Shown in pieces: positions 54,401 through 60,400 of a DNA stretch of 64,000 nucleotides. Positions within the stretch are counted from its first letter, which is position 1. Every line of letters starts with the position of its first letter. Below the pieces are notes generated by a model, which ran no database searches, was not told where the DNA came from, and was given only the letters and a program-made list of their open reading frames with translations. The stretch is taken from the NCBI GenBank assembly GCA_009760855.2, contig WPIO01000039.1, forward strand, positions 3,180,501-3,244,500, in the 5' to 3' direction. The position numbers were made by a program, and so were the translations under genes. The DNA is from Cristatella mucedo (lineage: Eukaryota; Bryozoa; Phylactolaemata; Cristatellidae).

Positions 54401-57400
54401 AACGATCTACTAATACCTGGAACTATCTAGCCTGGCTCGGATAACAGAAGCTACCGCTCTGCAAGTGGCCCAGTGTGTCAGGACATGGCCCAGCTTGGTG
54501 GGACTTGGCCCGAGCGGTGGGCATGGCACAGTATTGGTTGACCCCTCGTGGTGGGCGTGGTCCAGTGTTGAGGGCGTGGCCCAGTATGGTGGGTGGGCTG
54601 TGCTACTTGCCTCGGTCAGCTTAATTATCTCTCCACTGCTCAGGCAGAGCTTCTTGTTGTCGTCGAGGACGGTGTTCATGTTCTCAATCCACACGGCATC
54701 GACTGGTCCGTCGAACAGATACCAGCGCTTGTCTTTGTCGTCAGCGGACACACCGCCTCGAATCAAAGACGACAGAATGCCATCAGTCCTGCGACAGAGC
54801 AGAAGGAACAGGTTTGGCAGTTCTAAAGGCATTATTGCTCCCCCATGGTTGCCACACAGCAACTAGGATGAGAGTATGGTTGGTACGAGGCGGCACACAC
54901 ACACACACACACACACACACACACACACACACACACACACACACACACACACACACTCTCTCTCTCTCTCTCTCTCTCTCTCTCTCTCTCTCTCTCTCTC
55001 TCTCTCTCTCTCTCTCTCTCTCTCTCTCTCTCTCTCTCTCCTCTCTCTCTCTCTCTCTCTCTCTCTCTCTCTCTCTCTCTTCTCTCTCTCTCCTCTCTCT
55101 CTCTCGTGCTCCACGCATCTCCCGCAGAAGCAAGCTGCTCAGTGGAAGCTTCTTACCACTCGTGGGTCATCAGGTCAAACTCTCCGTACAGCTGCCCCAT
55201 CGTTATGGATTTGGGATTAAGCACATAGACGTGTGTGGCTTCAAAATTCGAACCGGCCGGCGACATCACTCCTTTAAGCATCGTCTGCGCTGCCTGCAGT
55301 ACCTCGTAGCACTGAAAAGAAATAAAGAAGCGATTGAGACGAATCATGCTAACCGAGTCACTCCCATCCTGCAGATGCCTTTGGCCACAAGCAGCAGCTA
55401 GCAGCAGCAACTGCTGCTGTCACTGCAAAGAACATGCCCAGAATGTGGAGCCCTTGCAGCCCGAGCATGCGATGATGTTGCCCATGCAACATGCGCGCAT
55501 CCTGCCTCCTGCCTTCTAACCTTTGTCTTTCCCGAGCCGGTGGGTCCGACGAGCATGAGGCCGTGGCGCACCACCGTGGTTTCGTACAGCTGGATGCACT
55601 TGTGAATGAACCCGGACACGTCTTTGAGGTTCAGCTTGCTGCAGGCCTTGCGTAGAGCCGTATCAAGCTCACCATAGTCAATGGGCTCTTCCCTGCGCAA
55701 TGCAAAGGAGTGGTGGAGTGCCGGCGCTCACGCACGCGGCCACTGCAGTCGCTGCACGGTCGAGTCGTGTTCGCGACTGCAGCAGCAAGCCAAAGGAGTC
55801 AGACCTCCGCAAGGACGGTGGTACCAGGCTCCAGCCTGAATGCACCGACCAAAGGCAAAGAGCAGCGATTCGTCTGTGGATCTGGGCTGGGCCACCTGGT
55901 GGTGCTTCATAGAAAGCGCCCTGACCAGAGAGCAATTGATGGGATACAAGACCGAGACTGTGGTGTCGGACAAAGAACATGCTGCGCATAAGGTGGCAAC
56001 ACTAGCAAAAGCGTAAGGGAAAAAGCACTCGGACAGTGGATAAGAGGAGTCAGCCTCCAGACGCCGGATCCAGGAGATGAAATAGCACAAAGGTCTAACG
56101 ATGTCGAAACTCGTCTTTCGCAAGGCTACGGACACCGATCTTTAAGTCGTGCCACTCACTTGATGTTCGGAAAAAGATCAGAAACTATGCCCGTGAATAG
56201 CTTTAAGTCCTCCATGAGGAACTTAGGGACGTTGACGTCTCGAATGGCCCGTAGACAAATCAGCTCCTATAACGCAGGCAAACATCCGGAACGATCAAAT
56301 GCAACATTCTAGCTGCTTCTAAGCAGGCAGAGCTCGTGCGCCATTTTCCCAGGCCAGGTTCATGCCTCATTCATGTCGGGATTCTGCCGCTTGAGGTTGC
56401 CGGCAGCAGAAATGACAGACTTGACGGCCCTCATGCCAAAGTCGTAGTGATCCTGACTGCTAAGCTGCTCCGACGATAGCTTGAACGTGGACGTGATCTT
56501 CTTCGCGAGAGTGCGCGCCTCGGAGAATCCAAACGAGAAGAGGCTTATCTCAGCGATGAGCGTGTAGTCGGGCACCATCATCGATACTGGCCGGAACAGC
56601 GCCTTCAGGTTGTCTGGCAGCTCCGTGCGACCCGCATAGCCCGGGTTCATTGTAATGAAAACGGCACATGACTGCTTTAAAGCCAGCTCCACACCTTGGA
56701 AGTCGAACCTGTCCAACTGTGCAGTTAAGAAGACCGCTGCCGCTGGTAAACCGAGAGGATCGCATGGCCAGCTTTGCTAAGCAAGAGCTGCTGGAGCAAA
56801 GCAAGAACGTTTGGCATGCTGGTAGCACGTGCGCAAAAAATTCTCTTCAAGCACTTGCTGAGTGGCATCAAGCAAAACAATCTGCATGCATTAAAATGGT
56901 CTAGTTCGGTTGTTTCCCAACAAAGAACAGAGCACCTTTCGAGCGATAAGAAAAAGCATCAGAAATTGGGCAAGGCTGAACACAAAACAAGGAAGTAATA
57001 ACGAGTGAGTCATCTCATAGCAGCAGCAATACAAGGCAGCAAGCACGATTAAGCTTTAACGGTTTGTTGGACCTTTAGCCTCAGTGCCTGCTGTATCGTT
57101 AGAATCTGCTGTGCCAGGACGGAGAGAACTTCAAGGTCAATGCGGTTGAACTCGTCCATGCACGACCAGCAGCCAGAACTGTAACACACAGTCGTTCCAT
57201 CTAATCTCTCATACTGCATGCATGTCCAAAGTGCTTGTTCTAGAAGCACTGCTGAGTACTCTTAGGTGGGGTAACATATGTTGTCGATGGATCTTCATTG
57301 CTACTCCCTGTAAAAATTCTGACAACCTAGCAATTATGTGTATCTTTTAGTCGTAAACCAAACTAAAGATCAATATGAGGGCCGTACGAGATTTGACTTA

Positions 57401-60400
57401 TTTGCATTATACACAATCAAGTGACTAAAACCACATTTATTATCAACCACTCAGCGAAATTAGTTGTCTTTTCAAAACCTGGCTCAGCATGAGAAAACCG
57501 ACCATTTATCACTGTGTCTTAGATGGATTCGGCAGTTGCATGCTTGCGGGTGGGAGCACGAATGCGGACTCGCATATGGACACACAGGCACGTGCGCAAG
57601 GCTCTCAGCATGCACAGAGTGCAAAGGTTTCCGGCTTGACCCGGCTTGGCGGTTGTGCTCGAATCCTCGAGCGCAGCAACGTGAGCGGCCTGACTCAAGC
57701 AGCCTGATGCATAGAGCAAAGTCACTCCTAATACGACAATAAGGAGAAGACAGCGGGCCTTGACGCAGTGAGCACAGAGGACAGCAGATCTCACCCTGCT
57801 CTTCAGCGCATTTTGAATCGTGGCAATCTGCTGAGCCACTACAGACAACACTTCGATATCGATTCTGTTGAATTCATCAAAACAAGCCCACGCTCCGGCG
57901 CTAAATAAAAAAGGCAGCACAATGCAAGCGTAAGAAAAGGCTGCTGATCCACCAACCATAGACGGTCTCCGTGCAATAAAAAAGAATGAAAACACGAGAA
58001 CAATTTTTTCAGTTAAGTCCTCGGAACACATGCCAGGAAAAGTACAGCTTAGTGGCAATGCACAGTGACTAGCCACGGTGCATCCACCACACCATGCCTG
58101 CGCAGTTCCTAAGCAGTCGTGAGAATTGCACCATGGTACACAAAATAAAGTAGCTAGACACAGCCAGCCGCGCGCACTAACAGAAATCAATCAACTGCTG
58201 CTCAATATGAAGAGACTAATTGACTCTCACTCTTAAGCATATATGTGCTTGTGCCATCTGGAGTGTTCTGGCAAACTTGCAGGGTCGGAATGGCTGCATT
58301 ATGCTTAAACCCAATTCATCGAACAATTCAGAGTGTGATCTTCTTGCCACAATGAATGCATGCTTTTTAGTCATCTTGGTAACTATGTTCTATCTCTTGC
58401 TTCAACTTGCTGTGGTAGTTTTATGGACAAGGACCGCCTGAATTGGGAAGTGGGCAGCCACGCTGCAGTTGCACCTGGATCTTAGTCTGGGGTTAAATGT
58501 GACCACACTTTACGACCAAGGTCTTGGGTTCGGTCCTGCATCTTTCATAGGCCACTGCAAGTGGTAAGGCGAATGGTTGATGCTGAGGCTTTTAATAACA
58601 CACTACACAAATGAGGCCATTGGATAAGTCGATCTTTTTTTACGCCTTATGGTGCCATCCTCTAAGGGGAGCCACCCATTACGATAAGCCGGCTGGAGCA
58701 AAGTACAGGGCTTATAGTACCCCTTAATTAGAGCAGTACTCTTAAATTCTTTTGGCCATGCTCTGTGCGTGCTTTCCTGCCTGTCTTTAGCTGGGCATCA
58801 TGGGAAGTAGCTGGATAATACAGTGCACTCACGAAGGCAAGGTCAATCAGCCGGTGGCTAGAGAAGTAAACTTGAAACACACTACCAATCTCTAGATTGG
58901 TGAAAAACGAATCGTCCAGCAGAAGCTTGCAGTATTTTAAGGGGAGGCACGGGTAGTATTAACAAGCATCTAAAAAGCTTTCTCGGCCGGCAACACCCAC
59001 GGTGTAGAAATAGACAGCTCAAAGCCTTTGCCGAATCGTAGGTTCTCCTAAAGCATAACGTGTAAGAACCTAAGAAGCTGCATGCACAGCGGAGCTTGTA
59101 CTGTCTGTGTTCCAGGGCAGTACGTGGCCTGTGAGCACAACACCGCCTGACCAGATCTGCGCAGCGACCACTGGCATGCCAGCATCGTGCCTGTCACCTC
59201 GAGACTGCATCATCATTGCGAACTTAGCACCTAAATCAGCCCAGCATGTAGCAAGAGCCTACAAAAAGCCACATTCTCCTCAATTTCTTCAACGACAGAT
59301 AAACTAGTGAACCTGCTGGCTGAACCCACGATGGTAAGTTGCATTACTCGAGTCATGTTCATGGTGGAGCGACTTTTCCAGTAGCATAGCTAGCAAGGTA
59401 GGCAGTGGGCAAGTGAGCATCTTTTTAACAGAGAGAATGCTGTGGACACTTCCCATGTGTGCTAGTTCACAGATAGCTAGCATAATGTAGACAGAGCTAT
59501 TCATTTTAGCATATTCCCATATCATGCCACGAGCCTACAGAGTCTAGTTAACCACTGACTGGCCACCAAGTGAGCTTGGAAGATCTTGTAGAAAAGGGCC
59601 GAAACCAGCCCTTAGCTAAGATTGTTGGCTTTCAGCTACAATGAAGATGAATTCGAATGCACTTTGAACAGATAGTTTTTGACCTATACTGATGCTAGAG
59701 GTAAGTAAAGATTATTCTTGATGAGCAGTCCCAATCAAAATATAGTGTTCGTGACCCCTTTCCGAAAAAATGGACTACCAAATACTATAAGTATGTGTAA
59801 TTCTGCATACCCATATTGGCAGGTATACAAGCATTTCAAAAGACATGCACACAAAAAGACAGACACATACAGACCTAGTGACAGAGAAGACACACAAAAA
59901 GACAAAGATACAGACAGATATATAGGCACAGAGACAATGACTGAGAGAGAACAGCAAGGGACTGAGGCAGAGAACGACAGAAAGTCAGAGAGACAGTGAG
60001 GCTTAGATATAGATAGAAATACAAGGGACTGAGACACAAAGGCAGAGTAGCCGGAACGACAGAGACCGTGAATTGCACACGTGCTTGTGTGTGCTTACGT
60101 GTCTGCTTATGTATGGGCATACATATGTGCAGGGCCGTGCACTTGTACAGGTATGAACATAAGCAGATGTGCTTAGCAGAAGCTAGTCTGAAGTCGTGGA
60201 AGAATATGCAGGCCGGGTTGCCTAGCATAAGAGCCACAATTCATCATTTAGCCTGCATGCAGCCATAATTTCGAGTGTACAGGGTAAATATTCATTCAGT
60301 AGACCGATCTTACTAATGATGTTCCCATCATTTTAGGCAAGTCTTAAATTACAGCATTAAAATGGCACGACGTCCCTATCTCAACGCCTCGAAAGCACTC

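Follow-up and report, generated by a model that had tools for sequence, protein, structure and literature searches.

Can an axonemal dynein alter its main ATP site by choosing between two versions of one exon? This question is raised by a 64,000-nucleotide (nt) stretch of the genome of the bryozoan Cristatella mucedo (GenBank assembly GCA_009760855.2, contig WPIO01000039.1, positions 3,180,501 to 3,244,500), referred to below as the window. It contains a DNAH1-type axonemal dynein heavy chain gene in which two homologous exons, here called A and B, each encode the Walker B segment of the AAA1 module. That exon B is in present use as a mutually exclusive alternative to exon A is the explanation tentatively favoured here, at a little short of an even chance; it rests on the anatomy of the pair and on the logic of the reading frame, and it has to be weighed against the poor splice donor of exon B and the signs that its sequence may be decaying or may have come from elsewhere.

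Anatomy of the exon pair and its reading frame

The arrangement described in the original prediction, namely two exons of 106 nt lying 616 nt apart, was re-derived in full, coordinates included (Table 1). Each exon is preceded by AG and followed by GT. The serine codon that is split at the entry is completed as AG/C in exon A and as AG/T in exon B, and both exons leave in phase 0, in agreement with what had been claimed. The exons are homologous and adjacent and have equal lengths and phases, as expected of a mutually exclusive pair, and these features, together with the correct strand of exon B, its position in the adjacent intron and the absence of any stop codon within it, support its use as an alternative exon.

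The predicted consequences for the frame were recovered as well. Splicing in of both exons leads to a TGA 13 codons into exon B, when both are skipped a TAA follows some 12 codons into the constant exon downstream, and the reading frame survives solely when exactly one of the two is used. The claim of mutually exclusive use is therefore upheld as far as frame logic goes, since the frame demands one exon at a time, with the splicing of exon B itself being putative. In humans, 60 % of mutually exclusive clusters hold exons that are not divisible by three, according to a published survey (PMC5740500).

The TGA that arises when both exons are included could also serve a different purpose, in which exon B, added after exon A, would act as a switch-off exon that brings in a stop and lowers DNAH1 output. 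Selection on the residues of exon B would not be expected under such a role, its weak donor would make it a poor cassette exon, and skipping alone would have the same effect, so that we regard a switch-off function as highly improbable.

Similarity between the exons and possible constraint on exon B

A scan of prokaryote genomes matched 46 stretches, three of which encode dyneins (L001, L002 and L003), all in one metagenome-assembled genome (MAG), and these were used as templates only. The MAG is labelled Verrucomicrobiaceae bacterium (JAIYDP01), and its three dynein heavy chain genes are evident eukaryotic contamination. A scan of viral contigs gave 11 matched stretches, none of them a relative.

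In tblastn searches, the DNAH1-like protein of L001 matches both exons (E 6e-14 for A and 2e-11 for B), while the exons find each other at E 1.2e-14, the next best match having an E value of at least 0.09; chance similarity is ruled out by these values. A recount of the residues gave the 24/35 identities originally reported, or 25/36 when the split serine is included. Of the 36 codons, 9 are identical, 16 carry silent differences and 11 specify another residue, and the nucleotide differences number 11, 5 and 24 at codon positions 1, 2 and 3, respectively. A recent duplication or an assembly duplicate is likewise ruled out, given that 40 of 108 bases differ and the flanks are unlike. The alignable core extends over 76 bp with 70 % identity and nothing beyond it aligns convincingly, which indicates that the pair is old.

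A survey for doubled exons among 82 template matches yielded 11 pairs overlapping by at least 12 template residues. Identity above 60 % in both members was found only in the three pairs that represent A and B; the best of the other overlapping pairs (0.64 and 0.44) consists of adjoining alignments that meet. Among the template matches, A and B are thus the sole convincing case of exon doubling, and no convincing third copy of the exon was found.

The number of nonsynonymous differences per site (dN) between A and B is 0.26 by the NG86 method and 0.22 by maximum likelihood (ML), while synonymous divergence (dS) is saturated: NG86 gives no value and ML gives 8.1. When exon B was allowed to drift without constraint from an unchanged exon A (t 0.5; 38 differences on average, against 40 in the real pair), only 1 of 20,000 runs retained 25 or more identical residues. 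If exon B descends from exon A, it has been constrained for most of its history. The earlier argument that the silent differences point to selection is consistent with the saturated dS and with dN of 0.22–0.26, but it presumes that B was copied from A; should B have come from another gene, its silent divergence from A could have built up while the two belonged to different genes and would be weak evidence for selection on B inside DNAH1.

Residues of exon B and the ATPase core

The assignment of the segment to AAA1 Walker B of an axonemal dynein, made in the original prediction, holds, and the gene is DNAH1 by sequence. In comparison with dyneins of the PDB (best 60 of 89 matches), the AAA1 region scores 376–378 bits against three DNAH1 proteins and at most 330 against others, and it is 87.5 % identical to DNAH1 across 200 residues. 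Vertebrate DNAH1 (PDB 9fqr, 9d2f and 8j07) is the closest AAA1 sequence among these matches and agrees with exon A at 31/36 residues and with exon B at 24/36. The Pfam family AAA_6 (PF12774) is matched at 377.5 bits with exon A and at 368.9 bits with exon B, leaving AAA1 intact either way. Because the catalytic Asp-Glu pair is kept in exon B, ATP hydrolysis at AAA1 should be possible with either exon.

Residue conservation was compared using the best five alignments per PDB search, among 80-odd matched dynein sequences. Of 13 columns without variation among 14 aligned dyneins, all are kept by exon A and 11 by exon B. Judging from AAA+ structures, the two changes in exon B would lie in or beside the strand that bears the Asp-Glu pair.

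Splice sites and the possible present use of exon B

Introns were placed by template–protein alignment, with one L001 template and a generic splice matrix in the score; a second placement used four template pieces from L001–L003 and no matrix. Donors were counted in the no-matrix placement where they had a unique position and a template score above 40, which gave 28 donors on 25 introns because two templates disagreed in three introns.

Several observations weigh against the present use of exon B, and the main one is its weak donor. The score of this donor is 0.51 (8.2 for exon A), compared with 4.8–12.7 for the best-supported donor in 24 of the 25 introns and 1.65, from a single template and still above B, in the remaining one, although taking the better donor in each disputed intron biases the comparison towards strong sites. 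The alternative placements in the three disputed introns score −3.09, −2.91 and −0.02, below the donor of B; uncounted junctions that are ambiguous or poorly matched are also low (for example, −1.65 and 2.49 without the matrix), and low junctions occur even with the splice matrix (−0.02, −1.65 and −1.24). These low-scoring alternative junctions are read here as misplacements. The sequence of the donor matches the U1 complement at 4/9 positions in exon B, 5/9 in exon A and 3–8/9 among the 28 donors. The acceptor of exon B is weak but not alone in this respect, with a pyrimidine content of 0.41 compared with 0.35–0.88 in 24 others. The residues add to the case: the substitutions at invariant columns change GAW to GCW (Ala to Cys) and CFDE to CMDE (Phe to Met), and neither is present in any of 17 dynein sequences, these being the 14 aligned ones and DNAH12, DNAH3 and DNAH6, whose 13 columns were judged by eye.

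The means by which a choice between the exons could be enforced are also limited. Possible steric interference has been noted in 9 % of human mutually exclusive clusters (PMC5740500). For A and B, steric exclusion was rejected because the gap of 616 nt is too long, and since all introns concerned are of the GT-AG type, neither steric hindrance nor incompatible spliceosomes are likely to impose it. A switch through the pairing of intron sequences was rejected too; a scan of 56717–60670 showed two short inverted repeats, neither of which connects A and B. Only the frame and the decay of unreadable messages would then enforce the choice, which also tells against mutually exclusive use. Exon B may be rarely used or decaying.

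Decay would mean that exon B is a former alternative exon, now a relic that has lost donor function and whose protein segment is drifting. Its donor is weaker than the best-supported donor in all 25 placed introns and two of its invariant columns have changed, as would be expected of a relic, and recent neutrality fits these data: after 0.1 unconstrained substitutions per site, a sequence free of stops and with no more than two altered invariant columns would still arise with a chance of 0.36. However, this chance falls to 0.06 at 0.2 and to 0.009 at 0.3 substitutions per site, so that any loss of exon B must have been recent, and exon B retains its open frame, its AG and GT and the catalytic pair. 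A relic is a serious possibility, albeit one that we do not consider probable.

Origin of exon B

Alternatively, exon B may derive from a different inner-arm dynein gene, one of the DNAH3/7/12-like kind, having been copied into this intron by paralogue exchange and being either used or silent in its new position. Among 11 inner-arm segments, the four nearest to exon B are T2 (0.81), CrLc (0.78), CrMe (0.74) and DNAH12 (0.72), all classed as non-DNAH1, whereas the segment nearest to exon A is that of DNAH1 (0.86). Nearest-neighbour classing returned all 11 known segments as labelled, one via a tie, with the labels of three template segments and three 8glv segments (the latter algal) having been assigned by us. 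Residues of exon B match the L002 protein at 29/36 positions and DNAH1 at 24/36, and at the nucleotide level exon B matches the L002 exon at 80/108 positions and exon A at 68/108.

A tree test on 15 sequences and 36 columns pointed in the same direction. The best of five trees placed exon B within the DNAH3/7/12 group, the tree with B as sister of A was 8.3 log units worse (approximately unbiased (AU) test, p 0.04), and none of 150 simulations under the latter tree reached the observed preference. On the other hand, a sister position of exon B to the DNAH1 clade was not rejected (AU p 0.12), and the origin signal is a hint only because convergence comes easily in 36 columns that each permit few states, and the model underrates it. 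The residues S2, L16 and L27 of exon B were considered as diagnostic of DNAH3/7/12, but the same three are present in the 8glv DHC2 segment (CrLc) of Chlamydomonas, whose gene may be the algal counterpart of DNAH1; this weakens their value, and they are not treated as the main explanation. In addition, tblastn with dynein templates found no exon or piece of any further dynein gene in the window, and landing in the adjacent intron in the right orientation would be unlikely unless the exchange was driven by homology. The greater resemblance of exon B to other inner-arm dyneins than to DNAH1 hints that it may not simply have been copied from exon A, while an ectopic copy as the full explanation of the pair seems unlikely.

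Proposed use of the two exons

Under mutually exclusive use, the explanation preferred here, A and B would be homologous exons of long standing that share one DNAH1 intron position, and the message would be readable only with exactly one of them. Around the observed anatomy, phases, frame logic and residues, we infer the splicing of exon B, the mode of choice and the effect on the motor. Exon A, with its strong splice sites and DNAH1-type residues, would be the default, and exon B, an alternative of low use or limited to certain tissues, would depend on an activating splicing factor because of its weak sites. A message with both exons or with neither would be out of frame and undergo RNA decay. 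Both isoforms would be expected to hydrolyse ATP at AAA1 and to differ in the beta strand that precedes the catalytic pair and in the subsequent helix.

If exon B is spliced, an inner-arm dynein would also have its main ATP site altered by alternative splicing, and the two naturally occurring isoforms, 11 residues apart, would offer a ready test of the role of AAA1 Walker B in motor speed. A bolder version, in which a single DNAH1 gene swaps its Walker B strand and helix for a version with residues of another inner-arm class through exon choice, is a long shot; if true, a single axonemal heavy chain would have two motor chemistries across ciliated cells or sperm. Different motor speeds in different cells are a matter of speculation. 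If exon B is unused, it provides an example of a recently lost alternative exon.

Comparison with known systems

Axonemal dyneins are usually thought to have diversified through gene duplication. No report of a mutually exclusive pair in an axonemal dynein was found among the titles and abstract starts listed in searches of an open-access library, which is not proof of absence. The broader statement in the original prediction, that no dynein with this arrangement has been described, fails in its general form, since in Schistosoma mansoni a mutually exclusive pair of homologous exons with split codons is described for the cytoplasmic dynein heavy chain (SmDHC1; PMC3228551). In both dynein heavy chains the homologous exons are equal in length and have split codons, and exclusivity was judged from sequence. 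Unlike DNAH1, SmDHC1 is a cytoplasmic dynein 1, and the position of its exons in the motor is not stated in that description (PMC3228551).

Another parallel is the muscle myosin heavy chain (Mhc) of arthropods, which differs in being a myosin with several exon clusters. The use of the Mhc exons has been proven by transcripts. The likeness is that mechanochemistry is tuned by alternative exons within an ATP-driven motor domain (PMC3228551).

Gene and window context

Most of the DNAH1-type gene lies on the minus strand from about 64000 to about 25200. Its C-terminal limit (about 25200; feature edge 25193) was set by eye from open frames, and its 5' end is assumed to lie beyond the window. The tblastn template matches to the gene are ordered along 63964–36235, with some exons unresolved and the 5' end out of view.

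Table 1. Positions of the exon pair, its neighbours and the surrounding gene in the window
Feature	Position	Strand	Remarks
Exon with AAA1 Walker A	60671..60859	-	Ends with GLA and AG of the split Ser codon; donor GAG/GTAAGA
Exon A, Walker B segment with DNAH1-like residues	57795..57900	-	106 nt; donor AGG/GTGAGA
Intron separating exons A and B	57179..57794	-	616 nt; flanks of A and B without convincing similarity
Exon B, candidate alternative Walker B segment	57073..57178	-	106 nt; donor AAG/GTCCAA, very weak; acceptor weak, within the range of the gene
Next constant exon, sensor I region	56363..56716	-	Start from template; 3' limit is the open frame to about 56363
Other parts of the DNAH1-type gene (motor region and C terminus)	25193..64000	-	Templates reach only to about 36235

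No Rfam family reached its gathering threshold. Within the DNAH1 gene but on the opposite strand, a reverse transcriptase fragment (Pfam RVT_1, E 2.7e-18) occupies 27606–28079 (+); retroelement-like pieces without a Pfam match are found at 30791–31549, and other stretches resembling retroelements lie near 15766–16543. An SH2 domain (E 1.6e-9) in the open frame 8373–8825 (+) is probably an exon of a different, plus-strand gene. Dinucleotide arrays (TG/CA, GA/CT and TA) occur in the DNAH1 region at 39267–39329, 40725–40952, 41959–42105, 42197–42321, 53637–53752, 53856–53970 and 54894–55105. A 21-bp unit is repeated in twelve near-perfect copies (98 % match) at 13960–14213, which falls in the 4-kb bin with the highest GC content (0.516) in the window.

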